NCBI RefSeq assembly: GCF_000092125.1
Contig: NC_014212.1
Location: 186,001-250,000 of the forward strand
Reading direction: 5' to 3'
DNA from: Allomeiothermus silvanus DSM 9946
Lineage (GTDB): Bacteria; Deinococcota; Deinococci; Deinococcales; Thermaceae
Length of the DNA: 64,000 bases
In this document: positions 4,600 through 38,836 of the stretch, one piece after another
Layout of the letters: each line of letters begins with the position of its first letter
How positions within the stretch are numbered: the first letter of the stretch is position 1
Notes under the pieces: model-generated
Seen by the model: only the letters and a program-made list of their open reading frames with translations
What the model was told of the DNA's origin: nothing
The model's database searches: none
Position numbers and translations under genes: made by a program

Positions 4600-4608
4600 G
4601 GCTTGGTA
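4600..4608. repeat. Right copy of the 9-bp IS target duplication
   Basis: GGCTTGGTA lies directly after the right inverted repeat and matches 3447-3455. Confidence 0.92.
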
Positions 4609-16995: not shown

Positions 16996-17235
16996 ATGCC
17001 CCATGTCATCACGGAACCCTGTATCGGTGTGAAGGATCAGTCCTGTGTGGAAGTCTGTCCGGTGGAATGCATCTACGACGGCGGAGACCAGTTCTACATC
17101 CATCCCGATGAGTGCATTGATTGCGGCGCTTGTGTGCCGGCCTGTCCGGTCTCGGCCATCTACCCCGAAGAGGACGTACCCGCCGAGTTCCAAAGCTACA
17201 TCGCCAAGAACCGCAAGCTCTCTGGGCTCGAGTAG
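16996..17235 (+). CDS. fdxA: 7Fe ferredoxin
   Basis: Small electron carrier, 79 residues. Cysteines at 9, 17 and 50 fit a [3Fe-4S] cluster and those at 21, 40, 43 and 46 a [4Fe-4S] cluster, with an additional Cys25, the same pattern as the Thermus 7Fe ferredoxin. ATG 16996 is 5 nt after GAGGAGGT; a GTG at 16981 would overlap the ribosome-binding site. Monocistronic, with its own promoter and a good terminator. Confidence 0.93.
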
Positions 17236-23203: not shown

Positions 23204-25841
23204 TCAGTTGAGGTTGAACGAATAGTAAGTGCACCTTCCGGTCCACACCGTGATCGGCCCCTTGCTGCGGCTAGGGTCGGGGGCGTTGACCTTTACGGTT
23301 ACACGGCAGTTGTCCGTGCCGAGCCCGGCGTTATGGACATTGTAGAGGTCGAAGACGTTGCTGGTGGAGGCAGTATCGGCGCGGAGGAGGTTATCAAACC
23401 CCGGGCCGCTCACGTAGAGCTTCCAGTCGTAGGTCAGGGCTTCGTTGCTAGGGTTTTCCACGGTAATTCCGCCGTAGTACCGGGTAGGGGCGGGCCCAAT
23501 GCGAAGGGTACAGCCGGTATCGCTCAAGACGATGGTACTGCCACCCGCCACCCTCACGCTCCCGCAGAAGCGGAACTGCCCACCGGTAAACTCCCTCGAG
23601 TACACCCCGTAATCGGTGATCTTGGGGTAGGGGTTGGGGGGGTGGGGGCAGCACGTTCAGGTTGAGGGTCTGGGTAGCGGTGGCCCCGTCGCTATCTTGG
23701 GTGGTCACGCGCACTTGGCGGGATCCGGTAGCCCCAAAGGTGACCGAGACCGAGCAGCCCGTACCTGCCGAAAGCGTATCGGGCGCATCCACTGACCAGG
23801 TGGTGGTACCGCATAGCTTGTTGATGTCGGGCTCGTTAGGGTCGGTGATGAGCGCGGTGATGGGGTAGGCCTCGCCCTGGTGGGGGTCTCCCCCGTATTG
23901 CAGGTTCAGGGTGGGCGGGGTGTTGATCACCTTGACCACGAAGCTGCTGCTGGCTTGGCTGTTGCCGTACTTGGCGAGGAGCGTCAGCGTTCTGCTGCCC
24001 ACCGAGGTGAAGGTGCGCTTGAGTTCGGGGCCGAACAGGCTGCTTTGGTCGGTGCTCCAGCCCCCGCTATAGAGGGTGCCGTCCAGATTTGAGGTCACGC
24101 TCAGGTTGACGCTCTTGGCCACGGGGTGGGTGATCTGGAAGAACTGGGCCAGGTTGGTCTCGACCCGGAGCTGTACGGTAGCGGGGTTGGTTTTGATGGT
24201 GATCTTGGGCGCTTCCGAGCCGCCCGGCGCGGCCTGCTCCTGCTTCCAGGCCTCGCTGCGGCGTCCATCGAAGTTCAGCACGCTCAGGGAATCGAAGATG
24301 CTGCTTACGTAGTCGGCGGGGACGTAGTAAAAGCCGCCGTCGCCCGCGCCGCAGCCCCAGGAGTTCTTGACGATGAAATACCCACCCCCGCCGATGTTGG
24401 GGGTCTGGCCGAACTGGCTCATGTCCTCATTGGAGAGGAATCCCACGATCTGCACGGCGTGGCCGCCGTAGGAGCCGGCCACCTCTTTGCCCTTGTCGTC
24501 GAGCTTGGTCTTGGCGTAGTTGCTCACCACACCGTCGTTTTTCACATCGTCCATGAAGCCTTTGTAGACCGGGAACGAAGCCAAGAGCACATAGCCTTGC
24601 GAGAGTTTCTGGCGCAAGAGGTTGAGCTTGAAGGCCTCGCCGTTTTTCCAGACCTGGATGGTCTTCGAGGAGGCCACTCCGGGCCCGCCAAAGCTTACCT
24701 TGGCGTAGCTACAAAAGGTGAAGATAAAGGTGGTGCAGACCCGGCGGCTTTCGTGGGCCGTATCCGAGCAGGTGCCGGTGTAGCCGTTGCAGCTGTTGGC
24801 ATACGAGTCGCTGTCGCCGTCTTTGACGCTGGGGCGTGAGGTGGCCCCGTTGTAGGTCCAGCCCCCCTCGCTGGGGAAGCTCTGGCCTTTATTGACCGCG
24901 GTCTCGAGGGCCTTCTCCGACCAGTAGCCGTCGGAGTAGTCGCTGGAGTCCCAGTCCTGCTTGACTTTGTTGACCAGGAACTGCTCGGAGAGGTCGGCTG
25001 GGTTGTTGTTTTGCACCCGCTCGCGGCTTTCCACCGCCCCGATCGCGGCGAAGGCCCAGCAGGTGCCGCGTTTGGCCTGGTTTTTGACCGGGCTGATGAA
25101 GTTCTTGAGGGGGAACCAGAAGCGCTTGACCAAGTTGGTAGGGGTGCAGGGGCCGTTGTTGTCGGTGCCGTTGCCAGGGTTGATGGCTTGGGGCCGGATA
25201 CCGCCGCCGGGCTCGAGCCGGGCCGTACGCAAACTCGCAGACTTGCTTCCCAGCAGGCTGTTGAGCTGCTCGAGGGCGGCCTTGACCTCGGCCAGCGACT
25301 TTCCCTTGAGGCTAGCAGGGCTGGGGGCTTGGGGTTTGAGGTCCTCGGGCAAGAGCGAGTAGCTCAAGGCATAATCGTCCAGGGCGTTTTCCACGCTCTG
25401 CGAGCGCTGGTAGGTTTCGGCAGCGTTGCGCAGCTGGGTCCCCAGGCCAAACAGCACCACCGACTCTCCCCCCGGCCCGCTTACCGGGCGGTCACCCTCG
25501 AAGCTGGGGCTGCCCGCGGCCTCGGTGAGCAGGGCCGCGGTGTTGGGGTCTTTCTCCGGGATACTGTTCAGGAAGTTCTTATCGCTTTGGTATTGGGCTT
25601 CTCGAGCCTGTTTAGCTGCGGCGACCGAGGCCGCACTGGAAAGCACCAGCTCGCCCGAGGCAATGCCTTTCTGGAACTCCTCGGGGCTGACCCGCTGAGC
25701 ATCGCTGGGGATCTCGCCTTTCCAAGAGTTGCCCTCGTTGAATAGGTTGGGGTCTGGCTTGCCCCCATTCCCGCCGGGCGAACAGGCCGCCAACGCGCTA
25801 ATGAGGATACCTACCATTCCCAGCCGCTGGAATGCTTTCAT
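23204..25841 (-). CDS. Papain-like (C1) cysteine protease lipoprotein, frameshifted
   Basis: Exported lipoprotein: signal helix with lipobox LAAC (Cys20), a pro-like region (about 40-230), then a papain domain with Gln255 in SPVKNQAKRGTCWAF, catalytic Cys261, His461 in GGHAVQIVGF and Asn493 in VKNSWGCGAGDGG. Two beta-sandwich (PKD/Ig-like) domains follow (about 545-770). The frame is broken at a run of seven C (plus-strand G at 23636-23642): as written the protein ends out of frame after 797 residues, while removing one base continues NPYPKITDYGVYSREF to a normal stop at 23204, about 878 residues. It is either a real mutation, a switchable tract or a base-calling error. ATG follows GGAGG and abuts the zinc-ribbon stop. 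Confidence 0.85.
23636..23642. repeat. Seven-base homopolymer at the protease frame break
   Basis: GGGGGGG on the plus strand, one base before another run of five G. Length 6 would restore the downstream reading frame of the cysteine protease. Such tracts are prone to slippage in replication and transcription. Confidence 0.6.
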
Positions 25842-26096
25842 CTAATTCCTCCTATCTTCTGGAACCCTGATGAGCTCGAGCCCACAGGTGCTGCAGAACC
25901 GCGCATACGGCGAGGTGATGGGGGCCTGGCAGCGGGGGCAGACCTCGAGCAGCCTTTCCCCATCGTTGAGGCAGTAGCGCTCTTTTGTGCTGGCCGGAAC
26001 GGCCCTGGCACAGCGCGGACAGATGCGGTAAAAAATCCCTGGTTCCTCTTCCACACGCTTACCCCCTTGCAAGCTGAGCGAACCCCAGCCATCCAT
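25842..26096 (-). CDS. Double zinc-ribbon protein
   Basis: 84 residues with two zinc ribbons: ICPRCARA paired with YCLNDGERLLEV, and VCPRCQAPI paired with FCSTCGLEL. No signal peptide or membrane helix, so it should be cytoplasmic. Its stop codon touches the protease start, and it starts 7 nt after the stalk-domain gene stop, so it is embedded in the operon. Such ribbons often bind nucleic acid or protein partners; its role here is unknown. The overlapping frame from 26092 codes for nothing recognisable. Confidence 0.75.
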   Translation of the reverse strand: MDGWGSLSLQGGKRVEEEPGIFYRICPRCARAVPASTKERYCLNDGERLLEVCPRCQAPITSPYARFCSTCGLELIRVPEDRRN

Positions 26097-26103
26097 TCGT
26101 GGG

Positions 26104-26820
26104 TTATTTCTGGCAGTCCAGCCGCACCCGCAGGCTGGGGGTAGGGGTGGTGTAGCCCGCCCCGCTGGCCCGGATGGAGTTCTCGAAGCCTTTGGTGTTG
26201 ATCTCGAAGAGCAGCTTGGTGGGGGTTTTGATCTGGTCTTTGGGGGTGTCGTAGCGGTACCAGAACTTGAGTTGATGGGTTACCACCCCGCCCGGCGGGA
26301 GATTGGCAAAGGTCAGCTTCTGCACGTCCAGAGCGTCGGCGGTAAGGGTTTGCGCATCGTCGAAGGCGATCTGGATACCCTGGTCACGGACCCCGGTGAA
26401 AACCGGCTGTACCATCTCCTTAGCCCCGCTGCGCAGCTCCACCGTCACGCCCCAGCCGGGGGTCTCGAGGGGGGTTCCGGCGTCTTTCACGATGGGCTCG
26501 AGCTTGGTTGCTTTGAAGCGCCAGATGCCATTGAAGAGGGTCTCGCCCAAGCAACCTTCCAGCGAGGCCCGCTGGTTGGCCCCGCCCGCGGTCTGGTTGG
26601 CAGGGGCTGGGTTGCCTAGGGTGAGCGTGGTCCCCTTGAGGCTATAGTCAATCCCCAGCTCCTTGAGTACCGAGATGGGCAGATAGGTCTTGCCGTTCAC
26701 CACGATGGCTTTATCGGCGGCCACCTGTCCATTTACCACGATGCTGTAGGTGGTGCCCGCGGCCAGGGCAAGGCTGGCCGCCAATACCAGAGCCAAGGTG
26801 CGCAATTTAGGGTCGAACAT
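26104..26820 (-). CDS. Secreted stalk-domain protein
   Basis: 238 residues: signal peptide (LALVLAASLALAAG), then a short copper-amine-oxidase-N-like 'stalk' domain (TYSIVVNGQVAADKAIVVNGKTYLPISVLKELGIDYSLKGTTLTLG), then a beta-rich domain with no family I recognise (about 85-235). The stalk matches the one in the 111-residue protein at 31859, which supports a shared function in both halves of the locus. Preceded by GGGAGAGGATC before the ATG. Follows the second large regulator by 111 nt. Confidence 0.72.
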   Translation of the reverse strand: MFDPKLRTLALVLAASLALAAGTTYSIVVNGQVAADKAIVVNGKTYLPISVLKELGIDYSLKGTTLTLGNPAPANQTAGGANQRASLEGCLGETLFNGIWRFKATKLEPIVKDAGTPLETPGWGVTVELRSGAKEMVQPVFTGVRDQGIQIAFDDAQTLTADALDVQKLTFANLPPGGVVTHQLKFWYRYDTPKDQIKTPTKLLFEINTKGFENSIRASGAGYTTPTPSLRVRLDCQK

Positions 26821-26931
26821 GATCCTCTCCCTTTGACCCTCAGGGTGCTGCCAGGCCGGTCAGATGGCGGTCAGAAGTTGGCCGGGTTTTGCCGATGGGA
26901 AAAGGGGCGGTGGGTGATGGCCAGGATTTGC

Positions 26932-29900
26932 TCAAGTAGGCGCCGGGATGAGGAAGCTCTGCCAGCTCCCCGGCAAAGTCTCCCCGACCTCGAGCATCCT
27001 CACCTTGGCTTCTTGGTATAGCCGACCCAGGCTCTTGTGGTTCCCCGAGCGGCGCAAGGCCTCGAGCGCCAGGCGCAAAGCCTCTAGGTCGTAGGGCTCG
27101 GCCTCGAGCAGGATCCGCCCTAACCGAGCGGCTTCCTTGGGGTCGGTTTCCAGCACAGCTTCCGCCCTCGAGCGTAGGGCCAGATGCACCGACTCGCGCA
27201 CGGCCTCGTAGCAGGGGGTGAGGCCCTCCAGGTAGACCCCTCGCCACAGACCGGTATCCTGGGTGCGTAAAAACTCCTCCAGGTCAGAGGTGATCGCCGC
27301 ACCCAAAGCGTAACCGGAAGGGGTGGTGACGATGACCGAAGCCCCCAACATCGAGCGCACCGTGTGAATCAGTTCTTTTAGCGAAGAAGCGGCTTTTTCC
27401 TCGGCCTCACCGGGGTAGAGGCGATCCAAAAGCTCGATCTTGCCTACCTCGCTCTTCCCGGCCAGGCGGGCCTCGAGCAGGAGGGCCAGCAGCTCCTGGC
27501 GCTTATGGCCCCGCAGGGGTTCGCCATTGAAGTAGAGGGAACCCAGGACTTCCAAACGCCGGGTGTCGGGCGGAGGGGGCGGGGTGGGCTGGGTCAGCTC
27601 GGGGAAGAGGCGCCGGGCCAAGTGGACTCCGTTGACCAGGTCGCGCTCCGCGAACCACTCCATCCGTTGCCGGGCGCTTTCTGGGTCTTTGAGGAGCCGG
27701 TCTAGCTCGAGGCCGATCTTGTGCTCGTCTACCTCCAGGTGGAGTTCCTGGGCCAGCTTTAGGGCCTGCTGCAACGCTCCCACAGCGGCTATCCGGTTGC
27801 CCAATGCGCCCAGGGCCAAGCCCTTGGCCCAGTGGGTTTGCAGGGTGTCGTAGGGGGAGTCCCCAGCGGCCTCGACCAGGCCTTCTGCCTCGGCGGTGAG
27901 GGCCAGGGCTCGCTCGGGGTATCCGGCTTGGGTTTGGGCGAACGCAGCGTCGAGGAGCACTTCCCGCAGCAACCGGGGGCTTCCCATCTGGCGGGAGTAG
28001 CGGAGTGCCTGCTCGGCGTGCTTGAGGGCCAGGAGTTTGGCGATGGGGGTGTCTTGGGAGCGGTAGAGCAGATTGGCCATCGAGTGGGTGGCGCTCAGGG
28101 GGCGGCTGGGGCCGTACAGCTCGAGGGTGGCAATGGCCTCGCTCAGGGCTTCCTCGGCCCGCTCGTAGTCGCCTTGTTCGATCAGCGCTTCGGCCAGCGC
28201 GGCCTGGGCGAAGGCGTAGGCCTTGGCGTCTGCGCTCTGGCGGCGGATCAGCAGCGCTTTCTCAAGGCACTCGCGCATCTCGCCGTAGCGCCCCAGCATG
28301 CGCAAGAAAGCCGCCCGGTTGACCAGGGCAGTGCCCTGCAGGCGCGGCACATCGAGCGGAGCTAGGATTTCCAGAACCTCCCTCAAGGTGGCCTCTGCCA
28401 GAGCGTATTCGCCCCGGTGGTAGTGGATCAGGGCTTGGGTGGACAAGAACTCGCAGCGCAGGGTGGGGTGGGCCTGGGCTTCGGGGGCGGCGAGGCCCTG
28501 ACGGACGAAGGCTTGGGCCCTCTCGATCTGCCCGGTCGCGAGGGCCGAACCCGCTACCGCTCGTAGCAGCTCTGGCGAAGGGTTGGGGTGAAGCTCGGGG
28601 TGGGCTTCCCAGGTTTCCAGAGCCCGCGCGTTTTCTCCGCCGATGTGATAAGTGCTGATGGATAGCGCGGGGAGGTCTACCGCTTCGCGCAGCCGAGGAG
28701 GGAGTTCACCGAGCAGGGCCTCGAGGTCGGGTACCCGGCCTTGCCGGGCCAGCAGGTGGGCGTAAAACCGCACCGTCTCAGGCGTCGCGGCGGGGGTCGG
28801 CAAGGCCAGCTTGACCAGCTGGGCGGCTTCCGGGAGGTCGTGGTGCTGGAGCACCGATGCGGCTTCCAGGGCCAGCTTTCCCCGTGCCTCGCCCTGGGCG
28901 TACTCCGCCGCCCGGGCCAGCCAGCGGGCGGCTTGCGCCTCATTCCCGAGCTGCTTGGCCCCCTCAGCGGCCCGGCGGAGCAACTCCAGCGCCGGTTTGC
29001 GCCCCAGGCCGGCAGCCCCAACGTAGTCAGCCGCCGCTTGAGGTTCCCCCTCTCGCAACGCCTCGAGCGCCTGTCGGGCCAGCCCTTGGCGGCGCAGCGA
29101 GGGCATCCGGCTAAGGACGACTTCGCGAAAAAGCGGGTGGGCGAACTTCCCACCCCGCATCAACCCTCGGCGTTGGAGTTCAAGATGGGCGGCCTCGAGC
29201 CCTTCCCGGCTCAGCCCGGCCACCTCCGCCCACAAGCTAGCGGAAACCTCTACCGGCAGGATGGCCCTGGCCTCGAGCACAGCCTCTACCGCGGGGTCCA
29301 GGAGGGTTTCCTCCAGCAACCGCTCGATCAGGGCTTCTACGGTCAGGGGTACGTCGCTGGTGGCTGGGGGTCGCCAGCGCCACCTTTTCCCGTCATTCCA
29401 CAAAAACCCCCGCCGAGCTAGGTGGCGGAAGAACTCCAGGGTAAAAAGCGGGTTACCTGCCGCTTGGGCGTAGATCCAGTCCAGCGCTTCCGGGGGCAGG
29501 CTGGCCCCGGCTTCGCCCTCGAGGAGCCGGCGGACACCAGCGGCATCCAAGGGTTCTAGTCGGAATGCGACGAAAGGTGCGGGGGGCATTACCCGGCTGG
29601 TAACGAGCAAGGCTACCCCCCGGGTTCGCTTGACCATCGTGGCCAGCTTCCCCACCCAGTCAAGCCGCTCCGGGCTCGCTTCGTGCAGGTCCTCGAGGTG
29701 CAGGATAACCGGGGCTAGTTCCCCCAGCAAAGCACCCAAGGCCGAGGCCGATTTTTCATTCTCGACGTGCTCCCCTTGCTCGAGGCGACGCAGGAGGCTC
29801 TCGGCCCAGGCTGGAAGCTTAGCGGGGGAGGGAAAGGCTCGGGTTAGCTCAGAGAGAGGTGCTGTGGCGTGGAGGCTGAGGCTGCGGCAGGGGGTTTGTT

Positions 29901-30060
29901 GCAAGAGTTCCTTCACGGTGTAGCTTTTGCCGATACCCGGCTCGCCCCACAACCCCAGGGCCAACCCCTCGCGTTTGAGCGGAAGGTTCTTGAGCTGGCC
30001 GATCAGCGTGGCATAGACAGGACGCATCGCTTCGACGCTCTTGGGTTCCGGCTGCAGCAT
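26932..30060 (-). CDS. Large ATPase-TPR regulator with C-terminal SARP/BTAD domain
   Basis: About 1042 residues, cytoplasmic. Order: AAA/STAND ATPase with Walker A GEPGIGKS (about residues 39-46) and Walker B VILHLEDLHEA, a NACHT-like helical region, a long array of TPR-type helical repeats (about 330-800), then a winged helix (LEVLGSLYFNGEPLRGHKRQELL, from about 834) and a BTAD-like helical domain to the end. SARP regulators usually carry the winged helix first, so this order is reversed. The frame allows ATG 30081, but I prefer ATG 30060: it follows GGGGGA and a TACCCT box, and the earlier ATG sits inside a hairpin. A signal-dependent activator of the adjacent protease genes is the natural inference. 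Confidence 0.75.
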   Translation of the reverse strand: MLQPEPKSVEAMRPVYATLIGQLKNLPLKREGLALGLWGEPGIGKSYTVKELLQQTPCRSLSLHATAPLSELTRAFPSPAKLPAWAESLLRRLEQGEHVENEKSASALGALLGELAPVILHLEDLHEASPERLDWVGKLATMVKRTRGVALLVTSRVMPPAPFVAFRLEPLDAAGVRRLLEGEAGASLPPEALDWIYAQAAGNPLFTLEFFRHLARRGFLWNDGKRWRWRPPATSDVPLTVEALIERLLEETLLDPAVEAVLEARAILPVEVSASLWAEVAGLSREGLEAAHLELQRRGLMRGGKFAHPLFREVVLSRMPSLRRQGLARQALEALREGEPQAAADYVGAAGLGRKPALELLRRAAEGAKQLGNEAQAARWLARAAEYAQGEARGKLALEAASVLQHHDLPEAAQLVKLALPTPAATPETVRFYAHLLARQGRVPDLEALLGELPPRLREAVDLPALSISTYHIGGENARALETWEAHPELHPNPSPELLRAVAGSALATGQIERAQAFVRQGLAAPEAQAHPTLRCEFLSTQALIHYHRGEYALAEATLREVLEILAPLDVPRLQGTALVNRAAFLRMLGRYGEMRECLEKALLIRRQSADAKAYAFAQAALAEALIEQGDYERAEEALSEAIATLELYGPSRPLSATHSMANLLYRSQDTPIAKLLALKHAEQALRYSRQMGSPRLLREVLLDAAFAQTQAGYPERALALTAEAEGLVEAAGDSPYDTLQTHWAKGLALGALGNRIAAVGALQQALKLAQELHLEVDEHKIGLELDRLLKDPESARQRMEWFAERDLVNGVHLARRLFPELTQPTPPPPPDTRRLEVLGSLYFNGEPLRGHKRQELLALLLEARLAGKSEVGKIELLDRLYPGEAEEKAASSLKELIHTVRSMLGASVIVTTPSGYALGAAITSDLEEFLRTQDTGLWRGVYLEGLTPCYEAVRESVHLALRSRAEAVLETDPKEAARLGRILLEAEPYDLEALRLALEALRRSGNHKSLGRLYQEAKVRMLEVGETLPGSWQSFLIPAPT

Positions 30061-30064
30061 ACAT

Positions 30065-30095
30065 CCCCCAGTTACCAACATAGGGTAGCTGGGGG
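30065..30095 (-). promoter_or_regulatory. Inverted repeat at the start of the second regulator gene
   Basis: CCCCCAGTTACC (30065-30076) and GGTAGCTGGGGG (30084-30095): 12-bp arms with one T-G mismatch around a 7-nt centre. A TACCCT box (30087-30082) lies within the upstream arm. It may be an operator for autoregulation or an RNA hairpin in the leader. Confidence 0.5.
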
Positions 30096-30119
30096 GGCGT
30101 TAAACCGCTGTTACGGGCT

Positions 30120-30776
30120 CTAGGGTGTGTATTTGATCAGCTCGTGGACTGCGTTCTGGTCCTCCTGCCGCACCAGCCCCACCCCTTTGGCGTACCACTG
30201 GGTGATGCGGTAGTTGATGGGCTGGCTGGTGCCCTTGGCACCGAACTCGCCTTTCAGGGTCAGCACTACCTTGAAGGTCTGGAAGGTTCCGGCAGGCACC
30301 TTGACCTGCTCCTGCGCCACAATCTGGAAGGTGATCTCGTTTTTGAAGGTGTAGACGAGCTGGCCTCGGGTCTTGTCGTGGGCGGTTATGGTCCCCTCGT
30401 TGGCATAGGTCCAGCTCGAGCCCACCCGCCAGCGGCCCTCGGCGGGGATTACAATGCCGCTGCTGGCTTTGACCTGGGTGGTGATGTTGGCATCGGGACC
30501 AAAACCAGAACTAAACAACGAGGGACTGGTGAGGCCCTCGGGGGTGCAGGTGTAGGGGCTTTCCAGCACCATCACAGGGTCGGTGTACTCATAGCGCAGG
30601 GTGAAGCCGCTGGCGGTAGCGTTGGTCACACGCATGGTATAGGTCTTGGATTCGCCTTGGATGGCGAAAGTTTTGCTCGAGCCCGCCTTGGCCGGGAAAA
30701 AGGGGTTGTCGCAAGCGGCCTGGACAGGGGCGGCTAAAACCAGCAGCCAAAGCATCAGCGTGCCGAATCCCTTCAT
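30120..30776 (-). CDS. Secreted protein of unknown family
   Basis: 218 residues with a signal peptide (GTLMLWLLVLAAPVQAACD). The mature part is beta-rich: SSKTFAIQGESKTYTMRVTNA, VGSSWTYANEGTI, YTFKNEITFQIVAQEQVKVPAGTFQTFKVVLTL and ITQWYAKGVGLVRQED. The segment VPAGTFQTFKV...WYAKGVGLVR is typical of DUF3108-like outer-surface proteins, but I do not assign a family firmly. 12 nt after the previous gene in the operon. Confidence 0.7.
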   Translation of the reverse strand: MKGFGTLMLWLLVLAAPVQAACDNPFFPAKAGSSKTFAIQGESKTYTMRVTNATASGFTLRYEYTDPVMVLESPYTCTPEGLTSPSLFSSGFGPDANITTQVKASSGIVIPAEGRWRVGSSWTYANEGTITAHDKTRGQLVYTFKNEITFQIVAQEQVKVPAGTFQTFKVVLTLKGEFGAKGTSQPINYRITQWYAKGVGLVRQEDQNAVHELIKYTP

Positions 30777-30788
30777 GATTTCCTCCTT

Positions 30789-31340
30789 TTAGGGGAGCCA
30801 CGAGAGGGCTTTTCGCGCCAGGGGCTGGAGGTTCTTCAACTTGGGCGGTTGCTGTCCGTCCAGTTGCACCGCCAACACCTGATTGCCCTTGCAGACCAGG
30901 ATGCCGAGGTCGTATGCCGTCGCTATGATGGGGTTCTTGATTGAGAGCGTGTACCGGAAGATCAGCGCCTCGTCGCCCAGCCCGCTTAAAGGCGTGGTTG
31001 TGATGTTGTTTGTTCCGCCGTCTCCGTCCCTCCCTTGCATCGCTGGCCTTAACAAGTCCAGGCCCATCGCAAACATGGCCTTGCTGTCCAGGGTCTGGTT
31101 ATTCCATTTGAGCGGGCCGACGAAGAGGTCTACCTGTAGGATTTGCAGGCCGCCAGCGGCGGGTTTGGGAAGTCGGTAAGCGCAGAAGCTTTGGTATTCA
31201 TTGGAGTCGCGGATCACCTTGCTTCCCTTGCCCAGCACCGCTTCGGCCTCGGTTTGGGTCAGCAGGGTGCAGGCATCCGTCAGGTTTGCGGCTTGCGCCA
31301 GGCTGAGCCAAAGTCCTAACAGTAGGATGAAACGCCGCAT
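30789..31340 (-). CDS. Secreted DUF3558-like protein
   Basis: 183 residues from ATG 31340, which follows AGGAGGCGAT; the longer open frame upstream overlaps the previous gene. Signal peptide (FILLLGLWLSLAQA), then DACTLLTQTEAEAVLGKGSKVI with a Cys-Leu-Leu-Thr motif as in DUF3558-type exported proteins, CAYRLPKP, and IATAYDLGILVCKGNQVLAVQLDG. It shares the DPC/DAC-LL-x-E pattern with its upstream neighbour, so the pair are probably old duplicates. Function unknown. Confidence 0.72.
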   Translation of the reverse strand: MRRFILLLGLWLSLAQAANLTDACTLLTQTEAEAVLGKGSKVIRDSNEYQSFCAYRLPKPAAGGLQILQVDLFVGPLKWNNQTLDSKAMFAMGLDLLRPAMQGRDGDGGTNNITTTPLSGLGDEALIFRYTLSIKNPIIATAYDLGILVCKGNQVLAVQLDGQQPPKLKNLQPLARKALSWLP

Positions 31341-31348
31341 ATCGCCTC

Positions 31349-31816
31349 CTAGGGTCCCGCTTTCTTCAGCCTCGGGGCCACCTTGCGGGCCAGCTCGAGG
31401 GCGATCTCGAGGGGAGCTTTCTTGGGGTGTAGGACCATCAGCGAAAAGCCCTGGGCGTAGAGGAAGACCCGCTCCTTCCCTTCGCGGGTGTAGAAGGCCC
31501 CCTCGCCCAGAGCGGTGTCCTTCAGGGGGGTGGGGTTCTCGCCCAGCTTGGGAGCCCCTTTGGGGTAGATGATATTGATATCCAGTTTGACCTCCACCCC
31601 TTCCCCGCTCCACAGGCACATGAGTACCGGCAGGCCGACCATGCCCTGGACCGCCTGGTTGGCGGGAGTGCTGGACTCCAGCTTAGCCCCGGTGGCCGCC
31701 GCCACCTCGGTCGCGCTCAGGAGCTTGCAGGGGTCGGGGGAGTTGGCCCCTGGAAGCTGGAACTGGGCCAGCACCGGGCTGAGCAGTAACCCCAAAATCA
31801 TCCATATCCGTTTCAT
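31349..31816 (-). CDS. Secreted DUF3558-like protein
   Basis: 155 residues: signal peptide (IWMILGLLLSPVLAQ), then DPCKLLSATEVAAATGAKLESS and MCLWSGEGVEVKLDINIIYPKG, the same layout as the next gene, with later FYTREGKERVFLYAQGFSLMVL. The stop lies 8 nt before the start of that neighbour. Probably an exported, disulfide-containing small protein; role unknown. Confidence 0.72.
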   Translation of the reverse strand: MKRIWMILGLLLSPVLAQFQLPGANSPDPCKLLSATEVAAATGAKLESSTPANQAVQGMVGLPVLMCLWSGEGVEVKLDINIIYPKGAPKLGENPTPLKDTALGEGAFYTREGKERVFLYAQGFSLMVLHPKKAPLEIALELARKVAPRLKKAGP

Positions 31817-31858
31817 GGCTTCCTTCTAACTCGTTGGATAAAGGTTGTCACCTCAGGC

Positions 31859-32194
31859 TCAGTTGGTCACGCTAAAGTGCACCGTTTTACTGGCTACGAC
31901 CGCGCCAAAAGCATCCCGACCTTCCAGCGTGAGGGCATAGCTTCCTATAGCGAAGCGCTTGGTGAGTGAAGAACCGGTTCCCAGGATGATTGGATCACCC
32001 AGCGTGCCCTGGGTGAGTTCACTCGAGACCCCAGCCGCTTTGAGTGCTGCCAAGGGCACGTAGGTCTGGCCGCCTACCACGATGGCTTGAGTGGAAGCGC
32101 TCTTGCCGTTGATGACCAGCTTGTAGGTGGTGCTGGCGGCGTGGACCCCAGGCAGCGTAAGCAGCAAAGCGATTGCGAGCCTGGTCTTGAGCAT
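31859..32194 (-). CDS. Small secreted stalk-domain protein
   Basis: 111 residues: signal peptide (LAIALLLTLPGVHAAS), then a stalk-domain segment TYKLVINGKSASTQAIVVGGQTYVPLAALKAAGV, and a short beta domain (SYALTLEGRDAFGAVVASKTVHF). The stalk part is clearly related to the 238-residue protein at 26104. ATG is preceded by AGGAGG. It lies between the protease and the DUF3558-like pair. Confidence 0.72.
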   Translation of the reverse strand: MLKTRLAIALLLTLPGVHAASTTYKLVINGKSASTQAIVVGGQTYVPLAALKAAGVSSELTQGTLGDPIILGTGSSLTKRFAIGSYALTLEGRDAFGAVVASKTVHFSVTN

Positions 32195-32260
32195 AGATTC
32201 CTCCTGATTTAGCGAAGTCGGGGTGGCCTCGAGCCCCGTAGAGTTCGAGGTCGCCTAAGT

Positions 32261-34705
32261 TCAGTTGGGCGGTGGAACATAGGTCAGCTTGAAGGCGATG
32301 GAAGCTGAACCGGTCAGGTTGAGGTCATCGGTGACATAGAGCCGGATGGTTCCCCCGTCGTTGTCGAAGCCGCAGCCGTTGGCTACGTTCTGCGCCCCGG
32401 TGGTGTCCCAGGACCAGTAGGGGTCTTGGCCCAGATTGATGGGCGGGTGGTACACGGTGGGGATGTCGGTCTCGGCGCACCCCCCCTTATGGGTGGCCTG
32501 CCAGGTCCAGCGGGGGTTCTTGTAGGGAGCGGTTCCGCCCACCCAGGAGCCCATGAGGATCACGGTTTTACCCACGTAGTCAAAGTCACCGTTGGCTGGC
32601 GCGGTGATGGAGACTTGAGGCGGGCTGCTGTTGGAGGGGGTTTGCACGTTCACCGTCACGCTGGTCTGGGCGCTCTTGCCCCCGTAGGCGGTGGCCGCGA
32701 GGGTGAAGGTGACGCTGGCTGGACTGCCCGAGCGAATCTTGATGGTGGGGGTGCAGTTGCCGGTGATGGGGAACTGGTTGTCGCCCGCGTCGCTGCTTGT
32801 CCAGTTGCAGGGCAAGGGCTGGTTGGCAAAGCCCGAGCCGTTGTCGCCGGTGGCCTGGCCCACGAGGGTGTAGGACAGGGTGCGCAGCAGGGTGTCGCTC
32901 GGTTTGGGGCTCGAGATGCTCACCTGCGGCGGGTCAAAGTCGAAGCGGGTAGCCACGAAACCGGCCCCCGGGCCTGCCGTGCCCGCCATCACCCCGGTCT
33001 CGTGGCTGAAGAGGTAGCCCTGGTAGGTTGTCCCGTTGAGTTGGAAGCTAAACGAGCGGGGGTCAGACACGTTCACTGTACCCGTGAGTGCACCGCCACC
33101 GCCGTCAAAGACCTTGCCGGTGACGGCCCCGGTGCTGCCATTGACCGCGGTGATCGAGAAGAGACCGCTGGGAATATCCAGCCCATAGACCTGCCAGTTG
33201 CCCACATAGGCATTTAGGCTCACCCCGCCACCCGCGATGCCGCTCAAGTAGTCGTGGAGCTTGAGGCCGTAGAAGCCATAAGTCTTCCCGTCTCGGTTGT
33301 CCAGCAGGGTTCCCGCCAGGGTGCGGTTGTCGGCGGCCAGGTAGCCGGTATAGTGCATCCCGCCGAGTTCTCCAAAGCTTCTCGCTCCAGTGTTGCTCCA
33401 GTCAATGTAGAAGTCTATCTGCCGCCCGGCGATGGTACCGTTGACCCGCCGGGGTTGGTTGTCGGGGCCGTAGTAGGTTCCCAGGCGGCGCTCGCTGGCC
33501 CAGTTCGGAGAGTTTTTGATGATATAGGGGATGTGGTAGATGTCCAGCACCCCGCGCTGCCCGTCGTGGTCGAGGTTGTAGCGGCCCAGGAAGAGCCGGT
33601 CGGGGGGCTGGCCGAAGTTGGGCGGCAGCACGCTCTGGACTACGGCGGCCTCGTAGACCTTGCCCTTGGTCACGAAATCGTAGCTGAACCAAACGTAGCC
33701 GCCCTCGGCCCAGCCGGTACCCCAAGAGTTCTTCACCCGGAAGGCTTTTTTGCTGTCGTCATAGCCGACCATCAGCATGGCGTGACCGCCCCAGGTTTTA
33801 GGGTCGGGACGCGGGTTGTCTGCGATTTCCCATACGTCGTTTTTGGGGTTGGGGTCATCGGAATCGAGCAGAACCCCAAAGGCCACCTCGTGCCCGCCTG
33901 CGAGCTGGGTTTTGTACCAGTCCAGCGAGGTGAGGGAATTCTTGGGGGCGTAGAGCACCTGGTTGGCCCGGTACTTGGCGTTCTCCAGGGCAATCTGGGG
34001 CAGGATGGTGGTCTGGAAGGAGCTAGGAATATGCCAGAGGGCTTTTTCCTGGCTCAGGTTGAGGTCATCCACCGCACGCTGAGGGCTGGTGTCCAGGATG
34101 GCCGGCATCCACATGGAGGTGTCGTTGAACCCCCCCTGGTTTATATAAGGCATTTCGGTCTCGAGCGGGATGCCCAGCTCGAGGGTTGAGAAAAGCTGGA
34201 GGTTGAAGGTCACGCTGCCCCCGTCCCAGGGGCCTGGGGGATTTTCGCTGTGGCTGGGGGGGTACGGTGTGCCCAGTTCGTCGGTCAAGAGTTCCATCAG
34301 GTGATGTACGTGGGTCACCCACTGCTCCGACAAGTCAAGCGTCAGGCCATACTGCCGCTTGTACTGGGCCTCGATGGCGGCCACCGCAGCAAAGTTGGTG
34401 CAGGTTCCGCGCGGGTTCTGGTCTTTGACCGGGGTCTGGTACTGCGAGAGGTCTGCGCTAGCGGGCAAGCCCTGCGGTCTGACCGTTTGCGAGGCAGGTT
34501 GGGTTGGGGGCGGATAGCGATCGAGGTAGGATTGGGTGACCTCAGGTTTGTCCAACAGGGCGATTTCCCCATTAGAGAGCTTGTAGGCCGGGGTTCCATT
34601 GACGGTGGTAATGCCGCTGATGCCAGGGCCAATGGAATGGGTCGGCGGTGGGGTGGTGCAGGCTGCCAGAATGCTTAAACTTAGCCAAAGCCAGTATCGT
34701 TTCAT
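32261..34705 (-). CDS. Papain-like (C1) cysteine protease lipoprotein, intact
   Basis: 814 residues: signal helix and lipobox LAAC (Cys16), a short pro-region, then the papain domain with Gln96, Cys102, His308 in WGGHAMLMVGYDD and Asn326 in FRVKNSWGTGWAEGGY. The Trp that normally follows the catalytic Cys is Thr here (GTCTNFAAV). After the protease come a beta-rich region with repeats like LDNRDGKTYGFYG (about 360-600) and two Ig/PKD-like domains (about 600-810). Likely tethered on the outside of the cell membrane. The start follows GAGGAGG, 11 nt after the small gene upstream. Confidence 0.85.
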   Translation of the reverse strand: MKRYWLWLSLSILAACTTPPPTHSIGPGISGITTVNGTPAYKLSNGEIALLDKPEVTQSYLDRYPPPTQPASQTVRPQGLPASADLSQYQTPVKDQNPRGTCTNFAAVAAIEAQYKRQYGLTLDLSEQWVTHVHHLMELLTDELGTPYPPSHSENPPGPWDGGSVTFNLQLFSTLELGIPLETEMPYINQGGFNDTSMWMPAILDTSPQRAVDDLNLSQEKALWHIPSSFQTTILPQIALENAKYRANQVLYAPKNSLTSLDWYKTQLAGGHEVAFGVLLDSDDPNPKNDVWEIADNPRPDPKTWGGHAMLMVGYDDSKKAFRVKNSWGTGWAEGGYVWFSYDFVTKGKVYEAAVVQSVLPPNFGQPPDRLFLGRYNLDHDGQRGVLDIYHIPYIIKNSPNWASERRLGTYYGPDNQPRRVNGTIAGRQIDFYIDWSNTGARSFGELGGMHYTGYLAADNRTLAGTLLDNRDGKTYGFYGLKLHDYLSGIAGGGVSLNAYVGNWQVYGLDIPSGLFSITAVNGSTGAVTGKVFDGGGGALTGTVNVSDPRSFSFQLNGTTYQGYLFSHETGVMAGTAGPGAGFVATRFDFDPPQVSISSPKPSDTLLRTLSYTLVGQATGDNGSGFANQPLPCNWTSSDAGDNQFPITGNCTPTIKIRSGSPASVTFTLAATAYGGKSAQTSVTVNVQTPSNSSPPQVSITAPANGDFDYVGKTVILMGSWVGGTAPYKNPRWTWQATHKGGCAETDIPTVYHPPINLGQDPYWSWDTTGAQNVANGCGFDNDGGTIRLYVTDDLNLTGSASIAFKLTYVPPPN

Positions 34706-34716
34706 CGCATCCTCCT

Positions 34717-34905
34717 CTAGCGCAACCCCCTGGGCTTATGAGTGACCTCGAGGCTGCGCAAATGCTCCGAGAGGGCTTCCAGGCTGGCGAAATGCAACTC
34801 TTTTTCGGCTCCCCGAATGCGCAAAGCATAGCGAATCGAGCCATCCGATTCTCGGATGAGCCGGAGCACGTAGACCTGGCTTCGGATTGCCTTTTCGGCC
34901 CCCAT
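34717..34905 (-). CDS. Small protein heading the protease operon
   Basis: 62 residues, no signal or membrane helix: VYVLRLIRESDGSIRYALRIRGAEKELHFASLEALSEHL. Pattern of strands then a helix; no family recognised. It is supported by position (11 nt before the protease start), by normal codon use and by a TACCCT box 6 nt before its ATG. Could be a small regulator or adaptor. Confidence 0.6.
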   Translation of the reverse strand: MGAEKAIRSQVYVLRLIRESDGSIRYALRIRGAEKELHFASLEALSEHLRSLEVTHKPRGLR

Positions 34906-34911
34906 GTCAGC

Positions 34912-34917
34912 AGGGTA
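34912..34917 (-). promoter_or_regulatory. -10 box before the small gene of the protease operon
   Basis: TACCCT, then 6 nt, then ATG. The same hexamer lies before both large regulator genes (38508-38503 and 30087-30082). No good -35 is present, which fits activator-dependent expression (inference). Confidence 0.45.
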
Positions 34918-35000
34918 GAAAAGGCGGCGTCACTTTACCGTCACAAAGTAGGGCTTCGGGAGCAGGCGCAAGATTGAACTCGAGCCCACCGGATGCGGGG

Positions 35001-38000
35001 CTAACCCTCGGGGCCGTAGCGCCGCAAAAACCCCACCCTGAACTCGGGGAACCCCTCGAGCCCCGCTGCGATCTTGCGGCACCGCTCCGCCGCCGCTTGG
35101 CGATACTTCCGGGCCTGAGCGGGGCGGGCGGCGCGGCTCATGGCCCGGTACAGCTCGAGGGCCTCCAGCAGCGGGACGGTGTTTGCCGCCAGCAGGGCCT
35201 CGGCCTCCCGGATGAGGGCCGGGGTGTCTCGCTCGAGCAGAGCCGAAGCCTCGAGCCGCACCGCCAGCGCCCGGGCCTGAAACGGCGGGTTGGGCGGAAC
35301 CTCGAGGCGCTCTACCGTTTCCAACGCCTTTCCCGGCTCGCCCAGGGCGAGCCAGGCCAGCCCAGCCGTCCAGGCCGCCCGGGCCCCGTCGTGAGCGTCG
35401 GCGAAGGGTCCGGCCAGAAGCGGCTCGAGCCGCGCTAGGGCGGCCTCGGGCTGGGCGGTGAGCACCTCCCGGCGGGCGTACTGGGCTTGGAGCCAGGCCC
35501 GCAGCTCGTCCAGTCCGGCTCCTTCGATCAGTGCCTCGGCCTCCCCCAGCAGCGGCAGCGCTTCCTCGGCGCGGCCTAGGTCTAGGTAGTACTCCACCAG
35601 CGACATCCGCCGCCGGGCCCGGCCTTGGGCGATGCCGTTGCGTTCGGCCACCGCTAAAGCGGCCTGCAGCGTCTCGAGAGCCAAGCCGAACTCGCCGCGC
35701 ATCCGCTGGAGCACGCTCAGGTTGTTGAGAAAGATGCCCTCCTGCAAGGGGTCGGGGTGGTTGCCCAACAGCGCCCGGCCTTGCTCGAGGTGGCGCAGGG
35801 CGGCTTCCAGTGCCCCGGTCTCGAACTCAAACTTGAACAGGTTGAGCAGGATATGCCGCTGCGACACCACGTCCCCGGCGGCGACCGCTTCCTGGAGGGC
35901 CTGTTCCAGAATCTGAATTGCCCGGGCGGTGTCGCCCCCGATCCCCACCGCCCGGCCCAGGTTGCGCAGGGCCATCCCCTTGCCGCGCCGATCCCCCTCC
36001 GCCTGGAAAGCCGCCAGGGCCTCGCGCGCGTGGCGCTGCCCTGCCGCCAGGTCGCCTTGTCCCACGGCCTGATCTGAGAGGATCAGGTGGGCCTCGGCGG
36101 CGAGGGGGGAGAGGGGAGAGGGCTCGAGGCGGAGGGCCTGATATAGCTGCTTCTGGGCCTCATCGCCGCGTCCCAGGGTTAGCAGAGTCTGGCCGCGCTC
36201 GAAGAAGGCCCTGGCCCGCAGGACCTCTGGCAGGGCCGGGTCTTGCAGGAGGGGCTCGAGCCGACCCAGGGCTTCGCCATAGCGTCCGGTGTGCCGCTCG
36301 AACTTGGCCCCGGCCAGCGCGGCGCGGGCCTGTAACACCGGGTCACCGAGCGAGTAGGCGCTTTCTTCCAGCGCCCGCAACTCCTCCTGCCAACCTTCCT
36401 GCTCATCCAGGAGCCGGTACAACTCGGCCCGGGCCGCGTGAACCTCGAAGGCCGTGGGGCCTTCTGCTCCGTCTGCCAGGGCTTTGTCATACTGGTTCAG
36501 GGCTTCTCGGTTAGCGTAAATAGCCTGGGCGGCCTCGGCAGCCTTGAGCCGCCAAGGCACCGCTTCCTTGGGGCGCCCGGCCTGCTCCAAATGCCTGGCG
36601 ACCCGGGTTGGGGCCCCGTCGAGGCGGGCCAGAGTCTCAGCCAGCTTGCGGTGCAGCACCTTGCGGCGTTCGAGCGAGAGCCCCTCCTGCAAGGCCCGGC
36701 GCAGCAGGTCGTGGGCGAAGCCCAGGCCGTCGGGTTTTTGCTGTAACAGGCCGGCCCGCACCGCGACCTCAGCGGCTTCGAGTGCCTCCCAATCCGAGAG
36801 CGCGGTGGCCCCGGAGAGTTCCTCGAGGCTGAACCCTTCTCCGGCCAGGCTGGCCGCCTCCAAGAGCCGCCGCACCGCACCGCCCAGCCGGTCCACCCGG
36901 CGGTTCACCGCGGCCTGTACGCTCCTGGGGAGGGGCAACTCGCGGTAGTCCTCGGTCGCCTCATCGTAAGGAGTGCTCCAGATCCCCTCTTCCACGCGCA
37001 GGTCGCCCGAGGCGAAGAGCTCCTTGAGGGTTTCCAGGGCGAAAAGCGGGTTGCCTCCGGTGGCGTTGTAAAGCCGTCGGCTGAAGAGTCGGGCCTCGCT
37101 GCCGGAGAGCACCCGCACGAGCGCTCCGACCCCCTCCGGGGCCAGCGGCTTGAGCTCGATCAGCACCGCCAGGCCGCGCTCGACCTGCTGGAAGATGGCT
37201 TCTCGGATCGGCGGGATCAGCTCCTCGCCGCGGAAGGCCGTGATGGGATAGCTCAGCCGTTCGGGCAGCACCCGGGCCATGGCGTAAGCCGAGACCTCGA
37301 GGCTGGCCGCGTCGGTGACGAACTGCAGGTCGTCGGCGACGACGATCCCTACACCGGCTCGAGCCAGCTGCCGGATCACCTCGGTGATAGCCTCCAAGAG
37401 CCGCAGCTTACCCTCCTCGCTGGTGATGGGAGGCGGGGGTGCTTCGGCCAGCTCGGGAACCAGCCGTGAGACCTCCTGGCGCACCCAGGAGGGTAGCTCG
37501 GTTGCGCCCAAGAGGCTTAGTGACTGGCGCAGGGCGCGGGTGTGAAAGGCGTAGGGGATACCGCTATCGCTTGGACGGCCCTCCAAGAGCAAGAACTGGC
37601 CTTTGCTGCGGGCAAACTCGAGCATCAGCCGGGTTTTGCCCACGCCGGGTGGCCCCGAGAGGTAGAGGGCTTTCCCGGTCTGCCACGCCGCCTCCATCTG
37701 CTCCCACTCCCGCTCACGGCCCACCAGCGGAGGGTGCTCGAGGGCCTGTGGTATGGAGGGAGGTGCCTCCGAGGCGGGAGCCGGAGGCGGGGCTTGGCCC
37801 CGCCGCAGCCGCTCGACGAGTTCCAGGGTTTCGGGTAGCGGCTCGAGCGAGAACTCCCGCTGGAGCAGGGCCCGGTAGCGCTCGTAGCGCCCCAGCGCTG
37901 CGGCAGCCCCCTCGACCCGCGCGGTGAGGGCCAGCAGCGCACGCTGGAGGTCCTCCTGGAAGGGGTCGGCTTCCAGGAGACACCTCAGCAGGGCCTGGGC

Positions 38001-38492
38001 TTCCTCGGGGCGGGCTGCTTCCAGCTCCTTGGCTCGTTTGCGGGCGGCCTCCCGCCACAGCCCCTGCCAGTGTTCGCGCTCCAAGAGCAGCCAGTCCTCG
38101 AAAGTTGGGGCACCCCGTACGCTGAGCCCGGCGGCAAACTCCCCCCGGAAGCAAGCCAGCGCCCCCTCCCAGTCGGCCTGCTCGAGGCAGCGCGTAGTCT
38201 CAATCAGGTCTGAGGCGTGCCCACCCAAGGCCAGCGTGTCTGGATTGACCACTAGCAGTGCCTCGGCTGGGCTGCCGCGCAGCCGGTAGAGTTCCTGTCG
38301 CAGGTTGCCCCGCGCCCGCTCCTCGTCGGCTTGATCCCACAGCAGCCCGGCGAGCTTCCCCCGCTCCACCGGGCGCCCTTGGGCGGCCAGATACACCACC
38401 ATGGCCCACAGCTTGCGGGTGGGCAGCACAAGCTTTTGCCCGTTCAGGTGGAGCTCCGGCGGGCCGAGCAGACGTAGCTCCAGGCGGCTCAC
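35001..38492 (-). CDS. SARP-type ATPase-TPR transcriptional regulator
   Basis: 1163 residues, cytoplasmic. N-terminal winged helix (LELRLLGPPELHLNGQKLVLPTRKLWAMVVYLAA), BTAD helical domain (about 95-232, FEDWLLLEREHWQGLWREA...LLEADPFQEDLQRALL), linker, then a AAA/STAND ATPase with Walker A GPPGVGKT (280-287) and Walker B GIVVADDLQF, and from about 600 a long TPR-like array. This is the AfsR/large-SARP architecture: signal sensing by the TPRs, ATP-driven switching, DNA binding through the winged helix. The GTG start at 38492 has TACCCT 10 nt upstream. Its likely targets are the secreted protease genes directly downstream. Confidence 0.87.
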   Translation of the reverse strand: MSRLELRLLGPPELHLNGQKLVLPTRKLWAMVVYLAAQGRPVERGKLAGLLWDQADEERARGNLRQELYRLRGSPAEALLVVNPDTLALGGHASDLIETTRCLEQADWEGALACFRGEFAAGLSVRGAPTFEDWLLLEREHWQGLWREAARKRAKELEAARPEEAQALLRCLLEADPFQEDLQRALLALTARVEGAAAALGRYERYRALLQREFSLEPLPETLELVERLRRGQAPPPAPASEAPPSIPQALEHPPLVGREREWEQMEAAWQTGKALYLSGPPGVGKTRLMLEFARSKGQFLLLEGRPSDSGIPYAFHTRALRQSLSLLGATELPSWVRQEVSRLVPELAEAPPPPITSEEGKLRLLEAITEVIRQLARAGVGIVVADDLQFVTDAASLEVSAYAMARVLPERLSYPITAFRGEELIPPIREAIFQQVERGLAVLIELKPLAPEGVGALVRVLSGSEARLFSRRLYNATGGNPLFALETLKELFASGDLRVEEGIWSTPYDEATEDYRELPLPRSVQAAVNRRVDRLGGAVRRLLEAASLAGEGFSLEELSGATALSDWEALEAAEVAVRAGLLQQKPDGLGFAHDLLRRALQEGLSLERRKVLHRKLAETLARLDGAPTRVARHLEQAGRPKEAVPWRLKAAEAAQAIYANREALNQYDKALADGAEGPTAFEVHAARAELYRLLDEQEGWQEELRALEESAYSLGDPVLQARAALAGAKFERHTGRYGEALGRLEPLLQDPALPEVLRARAFFERGQTLLTLGRGDEAQKQLYQALRLEPSPLSPLAAEAHLILSDQAVGQGDLAAGQRHAREALAAFQAEGDRRGKGMALRNLGRAVGIGGDTARAIQILEQALQEAVAAGDVVSQRHILLNLFKFEFETGALEAALRHLEQGRALLGNHPDPLQEGIFLNNLSVLQRMRGEFGLALETLQAALAVAERNGIAQGRARRRMSLVEYYLDLGRAEEALPLLGEAEALIEGAGLDELRAWLQAQYARREVLTAQPEAALARLEPLLAGPFADAHDGARAAWTAGLAWLALGEPGKALETVERLEVPPNPPFQARALAVRLEASALLERDTPALIREAEALLAANTVPLLEALELYRAMSRAARPAQARKYRQAAAERCRKIAAGLEGFPEFRVGFLRRYGPEG

Positions 38493-38515: not shown

Positions 38516-38755
38516 CTATCCGTCGAGGTGAAAGCGATTCGAGGGGGTCTCGGGTTCCAAGAAAGCCCCCGGCGGGCTCTGGCCGCCAAGACCCCGGACC
38601 GCCGTTCGCCCCGCCCCTGGGGCTGGGGTTCGTTCCTTTCGGGGGCGGCGGTTTTTGGAGGGTCGGGACCGGGTCGGAGTCAGGGGGTTACGCGTACAAT
38701 AGGTGAGGGCCAACAACACCATCACCAACAGCACCGAAACCCAGGAAGTCTCCAT
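38516..38755 (-). CDS. Possible small membrane protein (doubtful)
   Basis: An open frame of 79 residues from ATG 38755 with one hydrophobic helix (SWVSVLLVMVLLALTYC) and a long Arg/Pro-rich tail. It ends 23 nt before the regulator start. The first 25 residues look like a real membrane peptide but the tail has the composition of noncoding GC-rich DNA. The surrounding gap (38493-38836) shows nothing else clear. Confidence 0.3.
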   Translation of the reverse strand: METSWVSVLLVMVLLALTYCTRNPLTPTRSRPSKNRRPRKERTPAPGAGRTAVRGLGGQSPPGAFLEPETPSNRFHLDG

Positions 38756-38836
38756 GTCCCACTCCACTCTTAAGGCCAGTGTAAAGAGGAGGGGGTTAAA
38801 AAAGCGTTACAAATGACCGGGGCCAGAAGGGGATGT

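Follow-up and report, generated by a model that had tools for sequence, protein, structure and literature searches.

On the minus strand of a 64,000-nucleotide stretch of Meiothermus silvanus DSM 9946 (genome G000; G000:C1:186001-250000), hereafter the window, lies a locus pairing two large regulators with two papain-like lipoproteins. In the order of transcription it comprises sarpA, a gene for a 62-amino-acid (aa) protein, pap1, stalkA, P9, P8, P7, regB, stalkB, zr and pap2 (Table 1). From sequence comparisons, we propose with a probability of about 0.8 that these genes would form two tandem operons for surface proteolysis, each wired locally and induced by a signal, whose sensors and proteases can be interchanged. 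A previous sequence-only reading of this DNA had described a single module; regulators and exported proteases do belong together as it claimed, but in two tandem operons with separate predicted operators. All genes that it named are present on this strand and at this position, and the operators and promoters, absent from it, were added by the present analysis. Below, G numbers designate genomes (G001, sister species; G002, Calidithermus; G005, M. granaticius; G006, M. hypogaeus; G041, Thermus) and L numbers fetched regions.

Table 1. Features of the locus, in the order of transcription (window coordinates).
Feature	Position	Strand	Description
TAAC-type promoter upstream of the sarpA transcript	38778..38810	-	11-bp direct repeat, GTAACGCTTTTTTAACCCCCTCCTCTTTACACT
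Possible leader open reading frame (ORF)	38516..38755	-	79 aa, single transmembrane segment, between TAAC promoter and sarpA; weak
sarpA	35001..38492	-	SARP (wHTH+BTAD)-STAND ATPase-TPR regulator, 1163 aa, AfsR order
sarpA-type operator-promoter	34912..34946	-	TTGTGACGGTAAAGTGACG (34928-34946), then -10 TACCCT (34912-34917)
62-aa protein gene	34717..34905	-	small protein, no export signal; its start codon lies 6 nt past the -10
pap1	32261..34705	-	lipoprotein, C1 papain domain and PKD/Big tail; exchangeable slot 1
stalkA	31859..32194	-	shortened exported stalk protein
P9	31349..31816	-	exported, 155 aa, weak DUF3558 resemblance
P8	30789..31337	-	exported, 182 aa, weak DUF3558 resemblance
P7	30120..30776	-	exported, DUF3108-like
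TAAC-type promoter of regB	30082..30114	-	direct repeat, GTAACAGCGGTTTAACGCCCCCCCAGCTACCCT
regB	26932..30081	-	STAND ATPase-TPR-SARP regulator, 1049 aa, reversed order
regB operator-promoter	26842..26875	-	TCTGACCGCCATCTGACC (26858-26875), then -10 CACCCT (26842-26847)
stalkB	26104..26820	-	exported stalk and Ig-like protein, 238 aa
zr	25842..26096	-	double zinc-ribbon protein, abuts pap2 start
pap2	23448..25841	-	lipoprotein, C1 papain and PKD domains; exchangeable slot 2; frameshifted
pap2 tail	23204..23605	-	C-terminal tail of pap2 in another frame; not a gene of its own

Genes and predicted operators

The ATPase, TPR and winged helix/BTAD regions that the sequence-only reading had assigned to both regulators were recovered in both, as AAA_16/STAND, TPR and SARP (winged helix-turn-helix, wHTH, plus BTAD). 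Profile searches gave AAA_16 and TPR_12/TPR_MalT matches in the regulators and a BTAD match in sarpA (E 2.3e-13). The P-loop GEPGIGKS and an invariant GNPLF were present as well. In regB the TPR region spans residues ~400-830 and the SARP part residues ~835-1049; we therefore regard regB as a reversed-order variant of the large SARP regulators. In regB orthologues the C-terminus is about 35% identical to the sarpA N-terminus, with BTAD matches at about 4e-4 in those of G015 and G018. The N-terminal SARP domain typical of AfsR is thus present in sarpA and not in regB, and the general features of large SARP regulators were found: a SARP domain, a NOD/STAND ATPase with a TPR region, and predicted sites with 11-bp repeats at a fixed distance from the -10. 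The sole Thermus copy of the slot-1 unit (L042 2801-7567, G041) has its SARP regulator interrupted by a transposase-like ORF (3662-4882).

On the 3' side of each regulator gene we found an 11-bp direct repeat followed at a fixed distance by a -10 hexamer. In published SARP sites the repeats are likewise 11 bp apart, the 3' repeat lies 8 bp from the -10, and the -10 of afsS is the weak hexamer CACTGT (PMC10936776). Alignment of intergenic DNA from eight genomes showed TTCTGACC-N3-TTCTGACC, or near variants, upstream of stalkB. The repeat upstream of the pap1 operon was GTGACG-N5-GTGAC in M. silvanus and M. granaticius, and TTGCCACGCCC was repeated in G006, G012 and, less perfectly, G041, where the regulators are more distant; the operator sequence varies with the regulator family. 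In the 350 bp downstream of 43 regulators, the 11-bp period was recovered in 12 of 18 sequence clusters (1-4 at other periods) and perfect 8-mers at this period in 6 clusters (0-1 at others). A NANNNT hexamer stood at a single offset in 24 of 27 operators, the other offsets giving nearly all 0-2 and one 6, and this test is independent of how the repeats were picked.

The regB operator pattern TCTGACC-N4-TCTGACC had 11 matches in 50 Thermaceae genomes, ten of which adjoined regB genes or fragments (3 matches for the reversed control), and the sarpA operator with its -10 had a single match in the M. silvanus genome. Since these matches are rare and locally placed, each regulator appears to serve one operon. 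With SARP-type predicted operators in place, it is very probable that the regulators activate adjacent genes, as the earlier reading had suggested.

A second type of repeat, TAAC-N7-TAAC with the same -10 spacing, was present upstream of 13 of the 43 regulators, against 0.3 expected. Exactly two matches occur in the 64-kb window, before regB and sarpA, and the reversed control had none in 1.64 Mb. In ten relatives this element is found 24-60 nt upstream of regB, and L071 has it in front of a sarpA-type gene; elsewhere, most of its matches stand ahead of regB genes, zinc ribbons, SARP genes or lipoproteins. This promoter shared by both regulators thus suggests a further SARP, or autoregulation, above them. 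Scans for sigma-70 promoters and terminators yielded no signal that stood clearly out of the background. Since regB and the stalkB operon each have a direct-repeat promoter, we did not retain a single operon from sarpA to pap2 as the only reading; read-through from the pap1 operon into regB may still occur given the short gaps (11-66 nt). Upstream of stalkB, at ~26885-26910 in the window and in L034, L035, L036, L038, L041 and L043, there is a further conserved element, TTCGGCAAAACCC (in two cases CCGGCAAAA), some 15-20 bp ahead of the regB operator.

Both papain proteins matched Peptidase_C1 (E 1.7e-15 and 9.8e-13) and have a lipobox, and the Cys-His-Asn residues (C102/H308/N326 in pap1, C261/H461/N493 in pap2) were conserved in all 15 aligned homologues, in line with the papain lipoproteins with full catalytic residues described earlier. 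By domain and catalytic triad, they are predicted C1 proteases. The pap2 frame is broken in a tract of 7 C (23636-23642, minus strand), where intact relatives have 6 C and a single 876-aa frame. We thus rejected the ORF at 23204-23605 as an independent gene, since comparison with relatives identified it as the pap2 tail; the sequence-only reading had taken it for a separate small ORF. The sister species lacks 7 nt at the same tract (L040, about 17044-17070) and has also lost the tail frame, and the tail sequence is otherwise conserved despite the different indels in G000 (+1 C) and G001. In the two sequenced species of the genus, each represented by one genome, these independent frameshifts make phase variation or a slippage-controlled tail possible. 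The M. silvanus genome was sequenced by Sanger, 454 and Illumina (PMC3035272), so a simple error in the C tract is less likely, though it could still be one.

Two other lipoproteins resemble parts of this set. In G008 (L053 6661-9350), the PKD and tail region of pap2 follows an unrelated N-terminal part without papain, and the adjoining regB is a fragment. In Calidithermus (L051 10979-12796, G002), an astacin-like (M12A) lipoprotein with a PKD tail comes directly after a pap1 homologue and a stalk protein, and would add a metalloprotease to the proteases.

The interval between operator and protease encodes the 62-aa protein in slot 1 and the zinc ribbon in slot 2, both probably cytosolic, to judge from the lack of export signals. 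The 62-aa gene, between sarpA and pap1, had been overlooked in the earlier inventory; P8 had been recognised, and the gene is real, but it starts at about 31337 and not at 31619. The 62-aa transcript is probably leaderless. Its product has counterparts in seven other loci, mostly with RGLR or EGLR ends, no significant Pfam match, and a beta-beta-beta-alpha fold predicted with moderate confidence. StalkA has 111 aa, against ~230 aa for the stalk proteins of relatives, and its C-terminal end differs from theirs. StalkB is 82-89% identical in eight relatives; it has a stalk-like N-terminus and a C-terminal domain weakly matching YjhA/DUF4352, YxkC and MPT63 folds (predicted local distance difference test score, pLDDT, of the model: 66), and a Pfam search was empty even at E 1. 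A known protease-inhibitor family for the stalk protein was considered and found little backing, with no Pfam match, a best fold match that is YjhA/DUF4352-like and no inhibitor, and a poor model. The earlier proposal of small proteins acting as inhibitors, substrates or anchors gained no support: the second domain of the stalk protein is weakly DUF4352/telokin-like, and the zinc ribbon and 62-aa protein are the two without export signals. One of these two might be a feedback partner of the regulator, which is a guess.

Conservation of the neighbourhood and exchange of its parts

A survey of the 50 Thermaceae genomes and 20 fetched regions revealed a recurrent order of two units, one with a sarpA-type regulator, a small protein, protease slot 1 and a stalk protein, the other with regB, stalkB, zr and protease slot 2. 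Both units lie side by side in G000, M. granaticius, M. hypogaeus, G013, G015 and G018; between those of M. granaticius, an opposite-strand lipoprotein (L037 11492-13108) has Ig-like repeats and an apparent glycoside-hydrolase domain. The zinc ribbon, found in 29 of 111 Deinococcota genomes (none of them from Thermus group g4), marks the same arrangement in distant metagenome-assembled genomes of Deinococcales type from other families of the phylum. Outside Thermaceae, the core consists of a regB-like regulator, direct repeat, zr and a lipoprotein, with C1 papain effectors in L142, L149, L154, L155 and L160 and a C39-like effector in L145; C39-like effectors also occur in Calidithermus (L162, L163). 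Co-occurrence in related genomes, the check put forward in the sequence-only reading, was thus observed in many Deinococcota and did not refute it.

Of the 18 C1 papain genes in Thermaceae, 16 have a SARP/STAND regulator at a distance of about 6 kb or less by our own count, the exceptions being a 374-aa papain of G002 and the copy on G012 contig 38. In six genomes with large contigs, 15 of 76 subtilase matches lie within 6 kb of a BTAD match, where 3.1 were expected and no more than 11 were reached in any of 5000 random placements. With so many SARP/STAND genes in these genomes, some such neighbours are expected, but the association is above chance, the order is conserved over the phylum and the operators are dedicated. 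An accidental cluster of functionally unrelated regulators and proteases is thus highly improbable, and we rejected it on the association, gene-order and operator results, which indicate that the locus is more than a chance cluster. On the large plasmid of M. silvanus, two BTAD-subtilase pairs in inverted orientation and with identical spacing (G000:C2 5855-9844, covered by L072, and 259651-263640) are probably a duplicated unit.

Several observations weigh against so uniform a wiring. The S8 family (L054-L063) has a short GTCAT core instead of a clean operator, the G004 operator is degenerate, and the regulators of L084 and L085 have no clear repeat at the expected place. On G012 contig 38, operator, small gene and pap1 are kept without a regulator beside them, and the Thermus regulator is split by the transposase gene. 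Behind several regulators, as in the zinc-ribbon loci, stand PKD, NHL, RCC1 or Ig-repeat lipoproteins not recognisable as proteases; the protease is the commonest and not the only output of such regulators. Finally, the 43 regulators were fetched partly for a nearby protease, the subtilase/BTAD placement being the unbiased test of association.

Comparison of close relatives revealed exchanges within this framework. M. hypogaeus and G018 are 98.2-98.5% identical in DNA over sarpA and the small gene, and this stretch ends ~45 bp short of the protease start; the slot-1 proteases, one a papain and the other a subtilase, have no DNA similarity, and 97.1% identity resumes ~60 bp past the stop. In slot 2, G015 and G018 have operator, stalkB and zr in common (85%), with a C39-like protease in the former and pap2 in the latter. 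Their regB proteins are 91% identical over residues 25-100, 24% over residues 501-600 and 87% at the C-terminus, and DNA similarity breaks off over the TPR region while operator, stalkB and zr are kept. These comparisons indicate that the TPR sensor was replaced between conserved ends; the sharp loss of DNA similarity between such well-conserved ends makes recombination the better explanation, and a simple difference in evolutionary rate could contribute to the divergence. The identity of pap2 is 85-91% between genomes with differing regB (49-71% identical to the regB of the window), so that regulator and effector have separate histories. Judging from these alignments, protease slot and TPR sensor are interchangeable over evolution, and promoter, small proteins and output domain are retained.

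This pattern raises the question of biotic conflict, in which the cassettes would cleave the proteins of competitors, predators or phages, with diversifying selection behind the exchange of sensor and protease. The gene-precise exchange of unrelated proteases between 98% identical flanks, the sensor swapped between conserved ends and the recurrence of the same alternative alleles in several species all favour such a role. As regards polymorphic toxins, the effector varies between species at a constant site, the swap covers the whole gene and no immunity gene was recognised. That lack, the ordinary housekeeping genes on the flanks (cupin, esterase and ATP-grasp on one side; ABC/MacB-FtsX, PfkB, IMPDH and alanyl-tRNA synthetase on the other) and the absence of a relevant PADLOC match speak against conflict, which we regard as a possible but rather unlikely role. 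PADLOC returned only a marginal MkoA match on the sarpA ATPase loop and a generic subtilase match on the effector of a relative; we thus rejected a defence system, and the defence or predation role proposed in the earlier reading found no backing. Doubtful too, if broader, is the view of a phylum-wide polymorphic surface-protease system of Deinococcota, with SARP/STAND regulators and dedicated operators, whose sensors and proteases (C1, C39-like, S8, possibly others) would be swapped independently, allele-like, through diversifying selection exerted by biotic conflict; the zinc ribbon and the 62-aa protein would be dedicated intracellular partners.

Proposed mechanism and possible roles

Operators, conserved neighbourhood, gene-precise protease exchange and sensor exchange were computed directly, and the regulatory wiring is well supported by computation. 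In the mechanism that we propose, a cytoplasmic STAND ATPase would meet its signal through the TPR sensor, bind ATP and release the SARP domain, a gating that we infer by analogy with AfsR and MalT. The freed domain would bind the 11-bp direct repeat just 3' of the regulator gene and recruit RNA polymerase to the weak -10 hexamer that follows. One operon would thereby be switched on, producing a small cytosolic protein (62-aa or zinc ribbon), an exported stalk/Ig protein and a lipoprotein protease; the surface location of the proteases and the direction of regulation are likewise inferred. A further SARP, or autoregulation, would act on the regulators through their common TAAC-type promoter.

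Nutrition, conflict and self-processing are all compatible with this wiring, each being a role for the same machinery and not an alternative to it. As peptide-utilisation operons, the units would detect breakdown peptides by the TPR sensor and make the matching surface protease. The effectors, lipoproteins with PKD/Ig tails, are predicted at the cell surface, the exchange of sensor and protease would suit changing substrates, and the STAND regulators MalT and GutR respond to maltotriose and glucitol, respectively, plus ATP (PMC10936776). However, no peptide importer was seen within the units, and hence no uptake step visible, and the neighbouring ABC/MacB/FtsX genes resemble export or lipoprotein-type systems; we hold this role as tentative. 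Alternatively, the proteases could mature or shed the cell's own surface proteins, for instance in remodelling of biofilm, S-layer or pilus. This would agree with the lipoprotein anchoring, the stalk/Ig companions and the PKD tails, and coloured biofilms of M. silvanus have been reported from the paper industry (PMC3035272). The replacement of a papain by a subtilase in one slot is hard to square with a single fixed self substrate, and such a role seems rather improbable.

Comparison with known systems

SARP regulators are known mainly as antibiotic-cluster switches in actinomycetes. AfsS is a small protein encoded next to afsR; by gene position alone, the small protein encoded first behind the operator here is alike. 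AfsR-AfsS of Streptomyces also has a SARP+NOD+TPR regulator, with the domain order of sarpA, and 11-bp direct repeats over the -35 region with a weak -10 (CACTGT in afsS, CACCCT or TACCCT here) (PMC10936776). In contrast to that system, the output here is a predicted surface protease operon and not a regulator of secondary metabolism, each regulator has its own dedicated operator, the SARP domain of regB is C-terminal, and sensor and effector are exchanged between species.

RegB resembles MalT and GutR in having a STAND ATPase at the front, a TPR-type sensor and a C-terminal DNA-binding output. The output domain of MalT is of LuxR type, whereas that of regB is a SARP domain (wHTH+BTAD) whose predicted targets are surface proteases. 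Both MalT and GutR are activated by a metabolite plus ATP (PMC10936776).

Closer in output is NprR-NprX of Bacillus, where a TPR-containing cytoplasmic regulator controls extracellular protease activity; here too a cytoplasmic TPR regulator is tied to a predicted surface protease. The regulators of the present locus differ from NprR by the STAND ATPase and SARP domain, thus by another DNA-binding domain, and belong to another phylum; unlike for NprR-NprX, no signal-peptide gene was found, no systematic pro-peptide search having been made. The proteases have the catalytic Cys-His-Asn and, by profile, the fold of peptidase family C1 (papain). Unlike usual C1 members, they are lipoproteins, have PKD/Big tails and occur in a Gram-negative-type thermophile, and 16 of the 18 Thermaceae cases counted above are tied to a SARP regulator.

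Literature searches returned no description of this arrangement. New here are the predicted dedicated wiring from SARP to surface protease, a regB with its domains in reversed order, and an exchange that affects sensors and proteases as a pair. The SARPs of this thermophilic, Gram-negative-type phylum would thus form a network controlling predicted surface proteases, with operators readable by eye, an unstudied and readily testable signal-to-protease system. The ligand of the AfsR TPR sensor is still unknown (PMC10936776). The unrelated proteases and TPR sensors swapped at fixed sites provide a natural experiment, in culturable organisms, on which sensor answers which signal, and a concrete route to the ligand of the TPR sensor of a large SARP.

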